A stretch of 64,000 bases of DNA from Alcanivorax sp. DSM 26293. Lineage in GTDB: Bacteria > Pseudomonadota > Gammaproteobacteria > Pseudomonadales > Alcanivoracaceae. The position numbers and the translations under genes are program-made. The stretch lies in the NCBI RefSeq assembly GCF_900107995.1, contig NZ_FNUM01000008.1:1-64000 (forward strand), in the 5' to 3' direction. The notes beneath the pieces are model-generated. The model did no database searches. It was given only the letters and a program-made list of their open reading frames with translations, and was not told the origin of the DNA. Positions 55,550 through 63,843 of this stretch are shown one piece after another (within the stretch, counting starts at the first letter, position 1; every line of letters starts with the position of its first letter).

Positions 55550-55859
55550 TTCCCTCCTGACAGCCCCCAACCGACGTCCGTTCATCGCCATTCGATTTTC
55601 GCCTGTCCCCTGCGCGACGCCAGCGTGAAGGAAAACATGGTACTTCTGTTCCTATCGATGGCGCATGGCAATTTTTGTGAATCAGATTTGGAAAAACGGC
55701 TGCAGATCGGTTAACGCGAACATCCATAAAACCGCACCGTTTATCCTTTTCGTCTGTTAATTCCATATTTTGCATCTATAAAAATCATAGCGCCTGTTCT
55801 GAATGGGGAAGCAGTTCAACCTGCTTCAGAGGTCTCACAACGAGATCCGGGGGAACAGA
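55550..55859. other. Upstream region of the chemosensory operon
   Basis: About 310 bp. No supported gene; a leftward frame 55500-55775 has no family features and begins in AT-rich promoter-like DNA. The 55740-55800 stretch (TTTTGCATCTATAAAAATCA) is AT-rich and could contain the operon promoter. Confidence 0.45.
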
Positions 55860-56285
55860 ATGGAAGTAGCCGCTCCACAGGGAAGAGTCATGGACAGACT
55901 CCGTATCCTGGTGGTGGACGACAGCACCACCATCCGCAGCCTTATCACTGCCAAGTTGCACGAACTGGCAGCCGGCTCCTATGACCTGGACATTACCCAG
56001 GCCGCAGACGGCAGTGAGGCTCTGGCCTGTGCCCGGAAGCACCCTTTCGATCTGATCTTCCTGGATGTGGAAATGCCGGTAATGGGTGGCCTCGAGGCCT
56101 GCAGCGCCCTGCGACAGCAAGGTAACCCGGCACGCATCGCCATGCTCTCCAGCATGACCTCCGCGGAGGCGCATCTGGCCGGTCGCCAGGCCGGCTGCGA
56201 CAACTATCTGGTCAAACCCCCGCATGACGCCGATCTGCGTTCCATATTACGCCTGGCTTCGTTGCGAAAACTCGCCGCTGGCTGA
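55860..56285 (+). CDS. CheY-like response regulator
   Basis: 141 residues from ATG at 55860; MDRLRIL at 55890 is a serious alternative since the receiver domain begins there, and both have purine-rich sites upstream. Receiver motifs: LVVDDSTTIR (acidic pair), phosphoacceptor aspartate in LIFLDVEMP, threonine/serine in LSSMTSAEA, and lysine in YLVKPP. A single-domain regulator. First gene of the che operon, probably the output that CheA phosphorylates. No flagellar gene lies in the window. Confidence 0.85.
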   Translation: MEVAAPQGRVMDRLRILVVDDSTTIRSLITAKLHELAAGSYDLDITQAADGSEALACARKHPFDLIFLDVEMPVMGGLEACSALRQQGNPARIAMLSSMTSAEAHLAGRQAGCDNYLVKPPHDADLRSILRLASLRKLAAG

Positions 56286-56341
56286 ACAACAACCTCGATA
56301 CGCATAACAAACCTACGACAGGTTCCAGGGGAGAAGGCCCG

Positions 56342-58537
56342 ATGCAGGAAAACGACAAGGCACTGCAAAGCTTTCTGATCGAAAGTGACGAGAACCTGGG
56401 GCAACTGGAACAGGATATCGTGGCACTGGAGCGCTCCCCCCGGGACAATGACCGTATCGCCAGCGCCTTCCGGGCAATCCACACCATCAAGGGCACCTGT
56501 GGCTTCTTTGGGTTCAGTCATCTGGAGACCCTTAGCCATGCCCTGGAAGATCTCCTTGGCGCCATGCGCGACGGCGATGTGCAGATGGACTTGCCCCATG
56601 CCACCGTGCTGCTGGATGGAGTGGATGAAATTCGTGTTTTCCTCAAACGTATCCATGATGACGGCAACGATGGGGACCCCGCTCCACAGGCGCTGATGCT
56701 CCGGTTGCATCGGTTGATACCGGACCGCGCGCAAACCGGTGCCGCAACCCACCCGCCACCATCGGCCTCACTGAATTCTGAACCGGAATCCCTGGAACAA
56801 CCGGAACCTCCGCTTTCGCCCCTCCATGACGAAGAGCCGGAAAACAATGGCGGCGCACACACCACCATGGCCGAAACCACCGTACGTGTGGACGTGGTGC
56901 TGCTGGATAAACTGATGAACGTGGTGGGCGAACTGGTGCTTACCCGTAACCAGCTGCTGCAACACACCGCCAGTCAGAACGACGCCCAGCTGGTCAATCT
57001 GTCCCAGCGTCTCAACATGGTCACCAGCGAGCTGCAGGAAGGATTGATGCAAACCCGCATGCAGCCCATCCGGAATGCCTGGTCCACCTACCCTCGCCTG
57101 TTACTGGATCTGGAGAGGAAAACCGGTAAACGGGTGACGCCGGTACTCAAGGGCGGCGACACCGAGCTGGACCGTAGTCTTCTGGAGGCCATTCGCGACC
57201 CCCTTATTCACCTGGTGCGCAATGCCGTGGACCATGGCATCGAAAGTCCGGAAAAACGTCGCGCACAGGGCAAGCCGGAAACCGGCACGCTGACCCTGAG
57301 CGCTTACCACGAAAGCGGCAATGTCACGGTGGAAATCAGCGATGACGGAGCCGGGCTCGACAGTGAAAAAATCATCCGTCGGGCCCTGGAGATCGGATTG
57401 GTTCGGCCGGAACAGGTGGAGCAGCTCAGCGAACAGGAAAAGATCCGCTATATTTTTGAACCCGGGTTTTCTACCGCAGAAACGGTCAGTGACCTGTCCG
57501 GGCGCGGCGTGGGCCTGGATGTGGTGCGCACCAATGTGGAACGCATCGGGGGATCCATCGATATCAAGAGCCTCACCGGCCGTGGCACCACCCTGAAACT
57601 GAAAATTCCGCTCACCCTCGCCATTGTCCCGGCGCTGATCGTGCGTTGTCTTCATCAACGCTTTGCCATTCCCCAGGCCAATTTGATGGAAGTGGTCTAC
57701 GTGGAGTCCGACCGTCTCGACAAGGATATCGAAACGGTCCACGACGCCCTGGTCTATCGATTACGGGGCCGATTGCTGCCGCTGGTCGATATGCGCTCCC
57801 TGATGCAGATGGGGGACAGGGAAACCGAGAAAGACCAGTTCATTCTTGTCCTCACCGCCGATCAACAGGAGTTTGGTTTGTTGGTGGACGACGTTCGCGA
57901 CACCGAAGAAATTGTGGTGAAGCCGCTGGGAAAACTGCTCAAGGATAACCCCTGTTTTGCCGGTGCCACCATCATGGGCGATGGTCGCGTGGCATTGATT
58001 CTGGATGTGAAATCCACCGCCGACTTTGCCGGTGTCACCCGCCATGAACGCAAACTGCGTCATCAGGAAAATCCGTTGGCCGCAGATACCCAGCCCATTC
58101 GTGCCGCCGAAAACTATCTTCTGGTTCGCCCGGATGGCACATCCGGTCGCTCCGCTATCTCCCTGTCAAAGGTGTCACGGCTGGAGGAAATCAGCACCGA
58201 TCGCATCGAATACTCTGCCGGTCGGGAAGTGATCCAGTATCGCGGCGGTATTCTGCCGCTGATCCGCCTCGACAATCATCACGATATCCGCCCGGACGAC
58301 CAGGACATTATCCGCATTGTTGTACAGCCCACGGAATTTGGCGAAGTGGGCCTGGTGGTCAACGACATTATCGACATCGTCAGCGATGACGAGGCCGCCA
58401 TGCAACAGAACGGCAAAACCGAAGGCATTCTGGGCACCGGCATTCTGCAAGGCCGCGTCACCGACTTTATCGACTGTGATTCCCTGTTCAAGCGGTTCCA
58501 TGGCACGCACGGCAATGAGGACAGCAATGGAAGCTAA
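56342..58537 (+). CDS. cheA: Chemotaxis histidine kinase CheA with two CheW-like domains
   Basis: 731 residues. P1 phosphotransfer domain with H47 in FRAIHTIKGTCGFFGF; Pro/Glu-rich linker (~125-165) in place of a clear P2; dimerisation domain (~175-240); ATPase with N box HLVRNAVDHGIE, G1 SDDGAGLD and G2 GRGVGLDVV; CheW-like P5 (~415-560). A second CheW-like domain follows (~590-725: LLVRPDGTSGRSAISLSKVS ... GLVVNDIIDIV), unlike the E. coli protein. The extra domain may alter array packing. It overlaps cheW by eleven bases. Confidence 0.93.
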   Translation: MQENDKALQSFLIESDENLGQLEQDIVALERSPRDNDRIASAFRAIHTIKGTCGFFGFSHLETLSHALEDLLGAMRDGDVQMDLPHATVLLDGVDEIRVFLKRIHDDGNDGDPAPQALMLRLHRLIPDRAQTGAATHPPPSASLNSEPESLEQPEPPLSPLHDEEPENNGGAHTTMAETTVRVDVVLLDKLMNVVGELVLTRNQLLQHTASQNDAQLVNLSQRLNMVTSELQEGLMQTRMQPIRNAWSTYPRLLLDLERKTGKRVTPVLKGGDTELDRSLLEAIRDPLIHLVRNAVDHGIESPEKRRAQGKPETGTLTLSAYHESGNVTVEISDDGAGLDSEKIIRRALEIGLVRPEQVEQLSEQEKIRYIFEPGFSTAETVSDLSGRGVGLDVVRTNVERIGGSIDIKSLTGRGTTLKLKIPLTLAIVPALIVRCLHQRFAIPQANLMEVVYVESDRLDKDIETVHDALVYRLRGRLLPLVDMRSLMQMGDRETEKDQFILVLTADQQEFGLLVDDVRDTEEIVVKPLGKLLKDNPCFAGATIMGDGRVALILDVKSTADFAGVTRHERKLRHQENPLAADTQPIRAAENYLLVRPDGTSGRSAISLSKVSRLEEISTDRIEYSAGREVIQYRGGILPLIRLDNHHDIRPDDQDIIRIVVQPTEFGEVGLVVNDIIDIVSDDEAAMQQNGKTEGILGTGILQGRVTDFIDCDSLFKRFHGTHGNEDSNGS

Positions 58538-59000
58538 TCAACTGATCTGCACCTTTTCGGTGGCGGAGAAACATTACGGGGTGGTGGTCGACCATGTTCA
58601 GGAAGTGCTCGCCAACCACCAGATTACCGATATTCCACTGGCTCCCCCGGGAGTACTGGGATTAATGAATATTCGCGGCCGCATCGTGCCAGCCATTGCA
58701 CTGCGCAAAGTATTGCGATTGCCCGGTGAAAACGAAGACGACAACACCATCAACATCATCATCAATCATGGTGGCGAGCAGGTAGGCCTGATGGTGGATC
58801 GCATTGGTGACATTGTCAGTGTGCTGCCGGAAGAGATTGAACCCCCACCGGAAACGCTCAAGGGGGCGCCACGCAAGTTCATGCGTGGCGTCTTTCCTGT
58901 CCAGGGCACCCTGTACCTGCTACTGGATCTGGACACCTTACTGGCGGACGAATTATGCAGCCGCTCAGCCAGCCGCGCGGCACACTCACTATTGCAATAG
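58527..59000 (+). CDS. cheW: Chemotaxis coupling protein CheW
   Basis: 157 residues from MEANQLICTFSVAEKHYGV at 58527, starting inside the cheA end. The chain has the CheW fold: VQEVLANHQITDIPLAPPGV, GLMNIRGRIVPAIALRKVL and GLMVDRIGDIVSVLPEEIE. It links receptors to CheA. The gene immediately upstream of the globin receptor. C-terminal tail is Ser/Arg-rich. Confidence 0.93.
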   Translation: MEANQLICTFSVAEKHYGVVVDHVQEVLANHQITDIPLAPPGVLGLMNIRGRIVPAIALRKVLRLPGENEDDNTINIIINHGGEQVGLMVDRIGDIVSVLPEEIEPPPETLKGAPRKFMRGVFPVQGTLYLLLDLDTLLADELCSRSASRAAHSLLQ

Positions 59001-59020
59001 GAAGACGGGGATAGACAGCA

Positions 59021-61036
59021 ATGACCGACAATCTGGATCACGCAAACAACAACTCACTCTATAGCCAGGTAGGTGGTGAAACTGCTGTCCGGGCCGTGGT
59101 AACCGAATTCTACAACCGGGTGCTGGAAGACCCGGCCCTGGCGCCCTATTTCCGCCACAAACAGCGCAAGGGGCTGGAAGAATCCCAGGTCCGGTTTTTT
59201 ACCCAGGCGCTGGGAGGCCCAACGATTTATCAGGGCCCGTCCATGGCCGACGCCCACAAGAACCTCCATATCACCGCCCGGAATTTTGACCGGGTGGCCG
59301 ATCATCTTAACGAGACACTGGCATCGCTGGGCGTGGACTCCGCCCACATCGACGCCATCATGAATACCGTTGCGCCTTTGAAGGGGGACATCGTGAACGA
59401 GAACAGCATGGACACAACCAGCAGCAATTCGACAAACTCAAGCGATACCGTCCTTCGTGATGTGGATACCAGCAAGTCTGTCACCGACAGCCTGGAAGGC
59501 ATCAAGGGCACCATGGCAAGTCTTCAGGCCAATGTGTTTGTGGCGGACACCAACCTCAATATCGTCTACATCAATCCCCGCGCTGCCGAAACCCTGTCAA
59601 CCATTGCGCAGCCGATCTTCAAGACCTTTGGCGTTCGCATCGAAGATATCCTCAACGGCCATATTCACCGGTTTCACCGTGATCCCAAACGGGTGGAAAG
59701 CATTCTTCGTGACCCCAAGGCCATGCCCCATTCCGCGGACTTCAACTTCGGTGGCGTGACCTTGCGCACCCGTATCAATGCGGTAATGAGTGCGGAAGAA
59801 AAAATCATTGGTTACACCGTTTGCTGGGAAGATGTGACCACCGAGCTGCGTCAGGAAAACGAATTCCGCCGGGTGATGAACATGGTGGACCAGATGCCCA
59901 CCAACGTTTTCCTGTGCGACCGTGACCTGCAGATCATCTATCTGAACCCGGCCGCCACCGCCACCATGGAAAAGCTGGAATCCTACCTGCCCATCAAGGC
60001 CAGCGAACTGCTGGGTGCCAACATTGATATTTTCCACAAGCATCCGGAACACCAACGGCGCATTCTTTCCGACCCCACCAACCTGCCTTACCGCGCCCGC
60101 ATCAACATTGGCGAAGAAAAGGCTGATCTGCTGGTCAATGCCATCTACGACGCGGAAGGCAACTATGTGGGCCCCATGCTCACCTGGGAAATCATCACCG
60201 AGAAAGTGCTGCTGGAAGAGCGGATTCGCGGCACCGTGGAAGTGCTGGCCACCTCCTCCGAGGAAATGATTGCCACCAGTGACCAGATGGGGTCCAACGC
60301 CGGTGTCACCAGCAGCCAGGCCATCTCTGCCGTACGCACCGCCGAAGATATCAACGAGAACGTGCAGGCGGTGTCCAGTGGTATTGAAGAAATGGGCGCC
60401 AGCATCAAGGAAATCGCCAAGAACGCCACCGATGCGGCCCGCGTGGCCGATGAAGCGGTCAGCATCGCCGAAGGCACCAACACCACCATCAGCAGCCTGG
60501 GCACCAGCAGTGCGGAAATTGGCAAGGTGATCAAGGTGATTACCGGGATTGCGCAACAAACCAACCTGCTGGCACTCAACGCCACCATCGAAGCGGCCCG
60601 TGCCGGGGATGCCGGTCGCGGCTTTGCGGTGGTGGCCAACGAAGTGAAGGAACTGGCCAAGGAAACCGGCCGTGCCACCGAGGACATCGGCCAGAAGATC
60701 GAGGCCATCCAGGTGGATGTGAAAGGTGCCATCGAAGGCATTGCGCGCATCAGCGAAGTGATTCATCACATCAGCCAGGTACAGGGCTCCATTGCCTCCG
60801 CGGTGGAAGAGCAAACCATTACCACCAACGAAATGGGCCGGCGTGTCGCCGACGCCGCCAAGGGCACCAACGAAGTGGCCGGCAATATCGGCGGCGTGGC
60901 GGAAGCGGCGAAAAGCACCAACGCCGGGGTGGACAGCATGCGTCAGGCTGCCACCGACCTGGCCAAACTTGCCGCGGATCTGCAAACCCTAGTGGTGGAT
61001 GCGGAACGCACCGGACGCGCCGATAACCAGAAATAA
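59021..61036 (+). CDS. Truncated hemoglobin-PAS-PAS-MCP soluble chemoreceptor
   Basis: 671 residues, no membrane segment and no HAMP domain. Residues ~12-125 form a group 1 (trHbN) 2/2 globin: the line-up to Mycobacterium trHbN, recalled from memory, is colinear, with Tyr31 at B10, Gln56 at E11 and the proximal His79 at F8 ([12 protein letters not shown]), plus [11 protein letters not shown] Ser/Thr/Asn linker (~127-145) leads to PAS1 (~150-275) and PAS2 (~285-400), both containing a similar FHxxP motif ([20 protein letters not shown]). Residues ~405-660 are an MCP signalling domain with the tip [19 protein letters not shown]. No C-terminal CheR-docking pentapeptide. Likely senses O2, NO or CO; a haem role for the globin is inferred from residues. 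Confidence 0.92.
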
Positions 61037-61051
61037 TACGAGGCCAATCAG

Positions 61052-61444
61052 ATGGCGAATACACACGCACTGGTCATTGATGACTCCCGGGCCATGCGCC
61101 TGATTCTGAGCGACCTGCTTCAGCAATTGGGCTACGAAATCTCGGAAGCCGGTGATGGCCAAGAGGCCATGGCCCGGCTGGAAGGGGGTGACACCCTTCC
61201 CACCCTGGCCCTGGTGGACTGGAATATGCCGGTCATGAACGGCCTGGAATTTATCCGCGCCGTGCGGCAGCAGCCTTGCTATAACGGGATGAAATTACTG
61301 GTAGTGACCAGTGAGGCGGAAGTGAGCCAGATGGTCGAAGCCCTCACCGCCGGCGCCGATGAATACCTGATGAAACCGTTTTCCTCGGAGGCACTGGCCT
61401 GCAAGCTGGAAATGATGGGCCTGCAACGGACAGAGAGAGCATGA
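61052..61444 (+). CDS. CheY-like response regulator (second copy)
   Basis: 130 residues, single receiver domain: LVIDDSRAMRL, phosphoacceptor aspartate in LALVDWNMPVMNGLEF, VVTSEAEV with the conserved Thr, and YLMKPFSSEAL with the lysine. Close to CheY proper and could be either the motility output or a phosphate sink. It overlaps cheB by four bases (ATGA). Confidence 0.9.
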   Translation: MANTHALVIDDSRAMRLILSDLLQQLGYEISEAGDGQEAMARLEGGDTLPTLALVDWNMPVMNGLEFIRAVRQQPCYNGMKLLVVTSEAEVSQMVEALTAGADEYLMKPFSSEALACKLEMMGLQRTERA

Positions 61445-62565
61445 GCACCATCCGTGTCTTTCTGGTGGATGATACCGCCGCCGTGCGGCATATCCTCACC
61501 CAGATCCTCGAGGAAGACCCGGACATCGTTGTGGTGGGCACCGCTGCCGATGGACGCCAGGGACTTGATCGATTGCATCGCGTGGAAGCGGATCTGCTGA
61601 TTCTGGATGTGGAAATGCCCGGTATGGGCGGCCTGGAAATGCTCAAGGAACTGAAGGTCAGCCGTCCGGAACTGCCAGTGCTGGTGTTCAGTTCCATTAC
61701 CGAGCGCGGCGCCATGGTAACCATAGAGGCCCTGTCCCTGGGTGCCAGCGACTATGTGCCCAAACCCGCCATGGTGGGCACCGCCGCCGAGGCCAGGGAC
61801 TACATCAAGAACAGCCTGCTGGGAAAAATCAAAACCCTGCTGCAACGTTACAACAAGCCATCTGTGGCATACGCTGAACCTGCCAAAACGCCCCGTCCGG
61901 TTGCCTCACAACTCCCCCATCAACGTATCCCCTCCCGGGTGGACCTGGTGGTGATCGGCGCGTCCATGGGCGGACCAAGCGCCTTGGGTCAGCTGATCCC
62001 GTCACTGCCCGGCGACTTTCCGGTTCCCATTCTGGTGGTGCAACACATGCCGGCGGTATTCACCCGTGCCCTGGCCACTCGTCTGAACCAGAACGCCGCG
62101 CTGAATGTGGCTGAGTGCGACAGCAGGCAACGCGCCGAGCCCGGTCAGGTATGGCTGGCCGCAGGCGACTACCATATGACCGTGGATAAACAGGGCGACA
62201 ACACACTGATTGCCCCACTGCGCAGTGAGCCGGTGAACTTCTGTCGCCCTGCTGTGGACATTCTCTTTTCCAGCGCCGCCAGGCATTTTGGTTCCAATGT
62301 CCTGGCCGTGGTGCTGACCGGCATGGGTCAGGACGGCCTGGACGGTTGCCGCCAACTGGCCAGGGCCGGTGCCCAGATAGTGGTGCAGGACCAGGCATCC
62401 AGCGCGGTATGGGGCATGCCCGGAGTCGTATCAAGAGCCGGGCTTGCCTGCGCTGAGCTCCCCTTGCAGGACATGTCGACGGAAATCATGCGACGGGTTA
62501 ACCGTGGCCGCCCCACCTTCCGCGCGCGACAGCGTGCCGCCATGAACCCCGAGGCACAGGGATGA
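61441..62565 (+). CDS. cheB: Chemotaxis methylesterase CheB
   Basis: 374 residues: N-terminal receiver (VFLVDDTAAVRHIL; aspartate in LLILDVEMPGMGGLEM; lysine in SDYVPKPAM) and C-terminal methylesterase with the triad serine in VIGASMGGPSALG, histidine in VVQHMPAVFT and aspartate in VLTGMGQDGLDG. It removes methyl or amide groups from receptors after phosphorylation by CheA. Overlaps cheR by four bases. Confidence 0.95.
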   Translation: MSTIRVFLVDDTAAVRHILTQILEEDPDIVVVGTAADGRQGLDRLHRVEADLLILDVEMPGMGGLEMLKELKVSRPELPVLVFSSITERGAMVTIEALSLGASDYVPKPAMVGTAAEARDYIKNSLLGKIKTLLQRYNKPSVAYAEPAKTPRPVASQLPHQRIPSRVDLVVIGASMGGPSALGQLIPSLPGDFPVPILVVQHMPAVFTRALATRLNQNAALNVAECDSRQRAEPGQVWLAAGDYHMTVDKQGDNTLIAPLRSEPVNFCRPAVDILFSSAARHFGSNVLAVVLTGMGQDGLDGCRQLARAGAQIVVQDQASSAVWGMPGVVSRAGLACAELPLQDMSTEIMRRVNRGRPTFRARQRAAMNPEAQG

Positions 62566-63386
62566 GCTGTATCAGCGAAAACAGCTATCTCACTCTCTGC
62601 GCCCTACTCTCTGATCAGATCGCGCTCAGCCTGCCAGCGGACAAGGTGTACCTGGCAGAGGCCAGGCTGCAGAATCTGGCCAGCCAGCACACCCGGGGGG
62701 ACATCAATGCGCTCATAGAGAAGGCCTCCACCGTGGCTGAGGATGCACTGCGCACCGAGCTGGTAGAAGCCATGGCAATCAATGAGACGTATTTTTTCCG
62801 CGACCCGATTCTCAGCGAGAGTTTCCTGGACACCATGATCCCCACCCTGCTGGATAAACGGCGGGCGGACAAAACCCTGCGCATCTGGAGCGCCGCCTGC
62901 AGCACCGGCCAGGAGATCTACAGCGTTGCCATGTTGCTGGACCAGCATTTTCCACAATTGAGAAACTGGCAGGTCACCCTGATCGCCAGTGATTTCTCCC
63001 AGTCCGCATTGAGCAAGGCAAAACAGGGCTGCTATGGCCTTAACGAAATGAACCGCGGCTTGCCCGCGCGCAACATGGCGCTTTATTTCGAGCAACAGGG
63101 ATTGGACTGGCAGATAAAAACCGAGATCCGCGAACGCATTCGCTTTGAAAAAATCAATTTGATCCGGGAATGGCCAGAGGAACTGCCGTTATTTGACATC
63201 GTGCTGCTGCGCAACGTGCTGCTTTATTTTTCCATGGACGATCGCCTGCGAGTACTTCGCCGGGTACGCGAACAGACAGTCAGTGACGGCTACCTGCTCC
63301 TCGGCGCCACCGAGAGCCTGGAAAAATCCGCCGGCTTCATTCCGGCCATTCCCCGCAGCCATCGTCCTTTTTTCCAACCTGTTTGA
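62562..63386 (+). CDS. cheR: Chemotaxis receptor methyltransferase CheR
   Basis: 274 residues. N-terminal helical domain, then SAM-binding domain with the motif WSAACSTGQEIYS, LIASDFSQSALSKA, INETYFFRDP ahead of it and LLRNVLLYFSMDDR. It methylates glutamates of the receptor signalling helices. The globin receptor lacks a docking pentapeptide, so CheR must act without tethering. Translation is coupled to cheB. Confidence 0.94.
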   Translation: MSCISENSYLTLCALLSDQIALSLPADKVYLAEARLQNLASQHTRGDINALIEKASTVAEDALRTELVEAMAINETYFFRDPILSESFLDTMIPTLLDKRRADKTLRIWSAACSTGQEIYSVAMLLDQHFPQLRNWQVTLIASDFSQSALSKAKQGCYGLNEMNRGLPARNMALYFEQQGLDWQIKTEIRERIRFEKINLIREWPEELPLFDIVLLRNVLLYFSMDDRLRVLRRVREQTVSDGYLLLGATESLEKSAGFIPAIPRSHRPFFQPV

Positions 63387-63396
63387 GGGTGCACCT

Positions 63397-63843
63397 ATGG
63401 AAATGTCATCGCAACCCGCCATGCTGTCACAGAAAATTGCCCGCATCGGAGCCAATGTGCTCAGCGATTTCCTGAACATTCCGGTTCGGGCCCAGAGCGG
63501 CCCTCCTCCCACCGTGCAACATGGCGCGGAGGTTGCGATTTCGGGGAAATGGAAAGGCAGCGTGACCGTCTGCACCTGCGACGCTCTGGGCCCGCGAATC
63601 GCAGCCCGGATGTTCCGAAAAGAGGATGACGCCGTCACCGGCGAAGATATCATCGACGCCCTCACGGAATTGACCAACATCATCGCCGGTAACATCAAGG
63701 CTATCCTGCCCGGCCCCAGCCAGTTATCGCTGCCTGTGCCACTGGCAGTACTGCCCGGCGAGCATCGCAACAATGTGGACGTAACGTTATTCGATGATCG
63801 TCAGGGGATGCTGCGGATCAGCCTGCAGCCGGCGGAGCATTGA
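63397..63843 (+). CDS. CheX-type CheY-phosphatase
   Basis: 148 residues from ATG at 63397 (GAGGGTG Shine-Dalgarno). The helix EDIIDALTELTNIIAGNIKAIL carries the E-x2-N pattern of CheC/CheX/FliY phosphatases, whose Glu and Asn position water for CheY-P attack. Only one such helix is present, as in CheX. N-terminal region contains a strand pattern with SGKWKGSVTVCT. Its presence in the operon explains how the CheY signal is terminated without CheZ. Confidence 0.78.
   Translation: MEMSSQPAMLSQKIARIGANVLSDFLNIPVRAQSGPPPTVQHGAEVAISGKWKGSVTVCTCDALGPRIAARMFRKEDDAVTGEDIIDALTELTNIIAGNIKAILPGPSQLSLPVPLAVLPGEHRNNVDVTLFDDRQGMLRISLQPAEH

Follow-up and report, generated by a model that had tools for sequence, protein, structure and literature searches.

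A soluble chemoreceptor that joins a 2/2 globin to a pair of Aer2-type PAS domains, and that is probably a gas sensor, was found to be encoded in the window, a stretch of 64,000 nucleotides from Alcanivorax sp. DSM 26293 (contig NZ_FNUM01000008.1, positions 1-64,000), a marine oil-degrading bacterium. The receptor gene is a single open reading frame of 671 aa with an ATG start (59021-61036, forward strand), in which the globin is followed by two PAS domains and the MCP output part, and it is flanked by cheW and cheY in a compact eight-gene operon (55803-63843) with the order receiver, CheA, CheW, receptor, CheY, CheB, CheR and CheX. On balance, we consider it probable that the protein is a cytoplasmic haem-based O2/NO chemoreceptor with three predicted haem sites and a dedicated, non-flagellar che pathway. 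The following features were annotated:

55803-56285, forward strand: stand-alone receiver, CheY-like (Pfam)
56342-58537, forward strand: CheA with Hpt, dimerisation and ATPase parts and two CheW stretches (Pfam)
58527-59000, forward strand: CheW, with a putative ATG at 58527 and the longest frame from 58317 (Pfam, synteny comparison)
59021-61036, forward strand: TrHb-PAS-PAS-MCP receptor gene, 671 aa (ORF, domain searches, orthologues)
59054-59395, forward strand: group I truncated globin domain, residues 12-125 (Pfam, HbN/1idr match, Foldseek)
59471-59845, forward strand: PAS1, Aer2-type, putative haem His H219 and Trp W269 (NF041847, residue comparison; borders by eye)
59846-60220, forward strand: PAS2, Aer2-type, putative haem His H339 and Trp W389 (6ceq/3vol/4hi4, residue comparison; borders by eye)
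60221-61033, forward strand: MCP signalling hairpin following straight on PAS2 (Pfam, matched at 60422-60913; HAMP not matched)
61052-61444, forward strand: CheY (Pfam)
61441-62565, forward strand: CheB (Pfam)
62562-63386, forward strand: CheR (Pfam)
63397-63843, forward strand: CheX-type phosphatase, with a putative ATG at 63397 (Pfam, synteny comparison)

Domains and predicted haem sites of the receptor

An earlier note on this DNA had described one frame with a group I truncated globin ahead of tandem PAS domains and an MCP output part, without membrane helices. This description was borne out, as Bac_globin, PAS and MCPsignal were all matched in one frame by Pfam, the tandem PAS part was also matched by the NCBIfam Aer2 model NF041847, and the maximum hydropathy over 19 residues was 1.0, compared to 2.7 in the PilJ control, leaving no membrane helix in the receptor. 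As judged from its sequence, the globin is a group I truncated haemoglobin (TrHb): PF01152 covered residues 12-125 with an E-value of 4.4e-25 (6.0e-26 in a second search) and 88.7 bits against a cut-off of 21, and the best solved relative was HbN of Mycobacterium tuberculosis (1idr), aligned without gaps over residues 11-129 (119 residues; E 3.7e-22), while group II proteins matched far more weakly (about 1e-7 to 7e-5). Moreover, the AlphaFold2 model of this part, which was moderate (mean pLDDT 63) and built from four sequences, had HbN chains as the top Foldseek match (TM 0.71 by query and 0.81 by target). The model of the full-length receptor (pLDDT 40 from three sequences) was too poor to be used.

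The alignment with 1idr placed the pocket residues TyrB10, PheCD1, LeuE7, GlnE11, PheE15 and HisF8 at Y31, F44, L52, Q56, F60 and H79, respectively, with the helix labels being those that we take to apply to the receptor globin. The distal and proximal residues are thus the same as in HbN, and haem at the globin is predicted from this conserved pocket; the three residues that the earlier note had listed as kept (Y31, Q56 and H79) were indeed invariant in all eight orthologues compared. HbN, however, consists of a globin domain alone and has NO dioxygenase activity; the roles of its TyrB10, GlnE11 and PheE15 are discussed in passages of PMC3493545. The globin was also correctly said to differ from that of HemAT, since PF01152 was the sole globin family matched and PF11563 gave no match at E 0.001. 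To our knowledge HemAT has no PAS domain, and it shares with the present receptor an N-terminal haem globin that drives an MCP. Its globin, in contrast, is assigned to the Protoglobin family PF11563 in passages of PMC6194562.

As for the PAS domains, a PDB search with residues 147-406 returned three sequences under E 0.01, all of them Aer2-type haem PAS, which aligned to PAS2 (6ceq, 8.4e-20; 3vol, 1.5e-15; 4hi4, 3.1e-15); no solved PAS was aligned to PAS1 in this search, and the assignment of PAS1 came via NF041847. This model gave 227 bits for the whole receptor, with the best stretch at residues 136-404, far under its cut-off of 1200 bits, and the protein was therefore rejected as a true Aer2. 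Pfam matched PAS_8, PAS_4 and PAS above their cut-offs at residues 284-316, the start of PAS2, and PAS_9 at residues 172-273 of PAS1 with 25 bits, slightly under the cut-off of 27. For the residue comparison, W283 was taken by us, in both position and role, to be the distal Trp of P. aeruginosa Aer2. Accordingly counted on the letters of 4hi4 from W283, H234, the haem ligand of that protein in passages of the review PMC13401364, was located as the His of 'FHKNP'. The axial His and the distal Trp of Aer2 were present in both domains (H219 and W269 in PAS1, H339 and W389 in PAS2). In passages of PMC8694187, 6CEQ is listed as Aer2 of V. cholerae and 3VOL as that of P. aeruginosa, both with haem b. 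By sequence comparison, both PAS domains thus look like Aer2-type haem PAS and not like the flavin or redox sensors that the earlier note had proposed. PAS1 appears the less certain of the two and divergent, the best relative among the compared frames (blast) being about 31% identical, compared to 41% for PAS2, and it may have lost haem. With a pair of this type, three haem sites are predicted in the receptor, one in the globin and one per PAS, and globin and PAS would probably both be haem gas sensors.

In the MCP part, MCPsignal was matched at residues 468-631 (E 5.2e-30), the distance from residue 394 to the hairpin tip was 127 residues, and no HAMP was matched in the receptor at E 0.001. 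The protein ends in ...TGRADNQK and lacks the aromatic C-terminal pentapeptide, which was found in 8 of 40 other Aer2-PAS frames, some of them cut at the locus end. The best scores of this part tied at 86.7 bits between the PilJ of the same genome and an Aer2-PAS receptor (L058), and its sequence has no special closeness to Aer2-type MCPs. With Aer2, the receptor shares haem-type PAS in an MCP and the matching His and Trp positions, and differs from it in the N-terminal 2/2 globin, the missing HAMP match and the missing pentapeptide. Aer2 of V. cholerae carries two haem-type PAS domains, that of V. vulnificus three and that of P. aeruginosa one, and the proteins of the two Vibrio species are described as multi-PAS-haem O2 sensors in passages of the review PMC13401364. 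Furthermore, the Aer2-like F7 receptors have PAS-HAMP repeats, a 36H signalling domain (130 of 130) and mostly the pentapeptide (96 of 130), according to passages of PMC7184735. As this family is defined there, the receptor is not a member, having neither a HAMP match nor the pentapeptide, although it may still work like one.

Conservation in the genus and the che operon

The receptor was carried by 11 of the 17 genus genomes: eight had intact open frames of 671-674 aa, one had the gene across two contigs (G012) and two had a broken frame. A mis-assembled join of two genes, raised in the earlier note as what could undo its description, was rejected, because the same fusion is intact in eight genus genomes. 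A total of ten pocket residues (six in the globin and four in the PAS domains) were invariant in the eight distinct full-length orthologues, whose globins were 63-91% identical to that of the window protein. For selection, 14 rows representing eight distinct genomes were kept, leaving out L069, L075 and L076 (broken or cut frames) and L009 (too short). Pairwise omega against the window protein ranged from 0.08 to 0.18 for the globin, from 0.02 to 0.11 for the PAS domains and from 0.003 to 0.064 for the MCP part, with dS near saturation in some rows. The globin is therefore under purifying selection, yet of the folded parts it shows the weakest constraint, and the linker between globin and PAS1 was poorly conserved (27-57% identical across orthologue rows). 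The two broken frames, in G006 (L010) and G010 (L008/L069), may reflect sequencing error or recent decay.

The gene order of the operon was the same in L002, L003 and L004, the last being A. jadensis T9. Beyond it, the next large frames lie on the opposite strand and were by eye thioesterase-like and IclR-like. No reductase gene was present among the eight operon genes. A promoter scan gave one site, compared to 3.4 expected by shuffling, and a terminator scan nine, compared to 8.3 expected. The receptor and the operon CheA were present in the same 11 genus genomes and missing from the same six; in the carriers this CheA was 75-100% identical, and the remaining six had only a partial CheA match inside a very long frame. 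Such a frame, of 2,378 aa and matching part of CheA, was also found in the window's genome, and this type of frame is taken as ChpA. Apart from the receptor, the window's genome had a single MCP, which was PilJ-like and had CheW and CheR neighbours. Given the operon, the co-occurrence with CheA and this sole other MCP, the receptor is the evident source of input to the che pathway of its operon. The search for flagellar genes covered flagellin, for which a match was found in 0 of the 17 genus genomes, the control search being positive in 4 of 14 known genomes. Since flagellin was not found, the output of the pathway is probably not flagellar rotation. In A. jadensis, passages of PMC12046545 report no flagellar genes and no visible flagellum. 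Across the genus, receptor and che operon are kept together in 11 genomes, and none of the 17 gave a flagellin match. Neither this operon nor the missing flagellin figured in the earlier note.

Proposed mechanism and its alternatives

In the mechanism that we infer, which extends to haem binding, the identity of the ligands, the direction (sign) of the signal and the output, O2 would bind the haem of the PAS pair, and O2 or NO would bind at the globin. The conformational change would then travel in line from the globin through PAS1 to PAS2, which would set the state of the MCP hairpin itself, with no HAMP relay in between. This hairpin would control the CheA encoded beside the receptor, which would phosphorylate both receivers of the operon, while CheB and CheR would adapt the receptor and the CheX-type protein would remove the phosphate. 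The output could be type IV pilus behaviour or a response unrelated to motility. If three haems are bound, the receptor would be a natural test of how one protein sums different gas sensors. Moreover, the output could be found by simple deletion, as the operon is small and self-contained, no flagellin was matched and the window's genome has only one other MCP.

Other roles of the globin deserve consideration. NO dioxygenation is the reaction for which HbN-type pockets are mainly known, and the receptor globin could be catalytic. It might then, as an NO dioxygenase or an O2 trap, protect the haem PAS or tune them, signalling being left to the PAS domains alone. Such a role would fit the HbN-like pocket including the gating PheE15, whose part in HbN is treated in passages of PMC3493545, and the weakly conserved linker that separates the globin from PAS1; furthermore, the globin has omega values above those of the PAS and MCP parts and is the fastest-evolving folded part, as expected if it were merely accessory. 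Against it stand the absence of a reductase from the eight-gene operon and the recurrence of N-terminal 3/3 globins before the same PAS type (see below), which suggests a signalling role, and we judge such an NO dioxygenase or O2 trap unlikely. A globin that has become a relic no longer binding haem would be compatible with the broken frames in 2 of the 11 carriers, but purifying selection and the invariant pocket residues speak against it, and we give it hardly any credence.

Regarding the PAS domains, some MCPs use FAD in theirs. The receptor could sense the redox or energy state through flavin, as E. coli Aer does, and FAD-dependent PAS receptors are described in passages of PMC13401364. 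This is very improbable here, since every solved relative under E 0.01 was an Aer2 haem PAS (aligned to PAS2) and all eight orthologues retain the haem His and Trp in PAS1 as well as in PAS2. Finally, a gas receptor whose output is type IV pilus twitching through cross-talk with the Pil-Chp system is a version of our main reading and compatible with it. The PilJ-type receptor with its CheW and CheR neighbours and the 2,378-aa CheA-like frame in the same genome point in this direction, as does the lack of a flagellin match in the 17 genus genomes. On the other hand, the six genus genomes without the operon still match a long CheA-like frame, so the Pil-Chp system does not need the operon, and we regard twitching as a possible output, though not the expected one. 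For the cytoplasmic haem-based chemoreceptor as a whole, the preference stated at the outset is kept.

Precedents and wider occurrence of globin-PAS receptors

The earlier note had called a TrHb in this position unusual, which holds for its rarity and not for its novelty. A total of seven proteins with PAS, Bac_globin and MCPsignal were reported in silico from 8,075 complete genomes by Sharma, Parales and Singer in 2018 and proposed as putative aerotaxis receptors, and gammaproteobacterial Bac_globin MCPs without identified PAS are mentioned as well, with no occurrence of Alcanivorax in the passages of PMC6194562 considered. The same three domains occur here in one soluble protein, and the combination is thus not new, though rare and so far described in silico. 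One of these seven precedents, Cc_4972 of Corallococcus coralloides, is likewise a soluble MCP with the three Pfam domains in a che cluster (CheA-CheW-MCP-...-CheB-CheR); ABC1 and ABM genes are part of that cluster and CheY is missing from its vicinity, whereas two receivers and CheX belong to the Alcanivorax one, and the likeness is at the level of Pfam domains and gene cluster, as given in passages of PMC6194562. In other proteins, kinase or nitrate reductase domains are joined to 2/2 globins (passages of PMC7082302). The present analysis adds the Aer2-type haem identity of the PAS domains, the operon that accompanies the receptor in a genus without a flagellin match, and the recurrence of 3/3 globins at the place taken by the TrHb.

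With residues 1-406 as query, a match running from the TrHb across both PAS domains was found, among the matches listed, in 1 of 369 class genomes, the source genome itself, and in 5 of 390 order genomes, these being the source and four others of the genus; no TrHb-PAS fusion outside the genus was among the matches listed for these residues in either sample. Searches with PF01152 extended over overlapping samples of 398 genomes of the phylum, 390 of the order and 321 of the class. Among the matches listed in frames longer than 400 aa, there were those of the genus and six others, and no fusion outside the genus; each of the six was rejected, being a single-domain globin preceded by read-through of upstream sequence. 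Matches in frames of 300-400 aa came from G202, G361 and G620, and weaker or rarer TrHb fusions can be missed among the matches listed.

Other alignments reached back to residues 24-81 (for example, L036, L037, L040, L041, L044 and L047, and further L048, L056, L058 and L121). These were rejected as TrHb fusions, the receptors carrying a 3/3 globin. Aer2-type PAS motifs in a frame of at least 300 aa were present in 51 of the 54 best loci of the class and order searches; these loci are best matches and no random sample, and some end at the flank of 1,500 bases, so that globins may be missed. A 3/3-globin profile built from eight of the 51 frames matched 25 of them, or 17 of 43 without those eight. 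Globin PF00042 was found in all eight receptors scanned, six of which had been chosen because their alignment reached that region, all eight also had HAMP, and flavohaemoprotein models of NCBIfam (NF009805) matched over the globin in each of three scanned receptors. A flavohaemoglobin-like 3/3 globin followed by two or three Aer2-type PAS domains, HAMP and MCP thus recurs in the class sample (L035, L036, L037, L040, L041, L043, L048 and L056, among others), and no description of such receptors was found in the literature passages searched. Those in L035, L036 and L037 share with the Alcanivorax receptor a globin N-terminal to Aer2-type PAS, and differ in the PF00042 globin and in HAMP.

Globins of two lineages therefore recur before the same haem-PAS type. 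As a tentative extension, which we consider less likely than not, the Alcanivorax protein could be a three-haem receptor for two gases, with O2 read by the PAS pair and the HbN-like globin responding to NO or to O2 at very low levels, and could drive, in bacteria lacking flagella, a complete che pathway of its own with an output other than motor switching. As 2/2 and 3/3 globins both precede Aer2-type PAS in MCPs, the pairing of a globin with haem-PAS might then be a design of general use that has yet to be named. In addition, Bac_globin matched twice in each of several open frames of about 270-300 aa (G127:C6, G361:C98, G108:C3, G297:C1, G246:C36, G351:C56 and G120:C108), which are probably tandem truncated globins.
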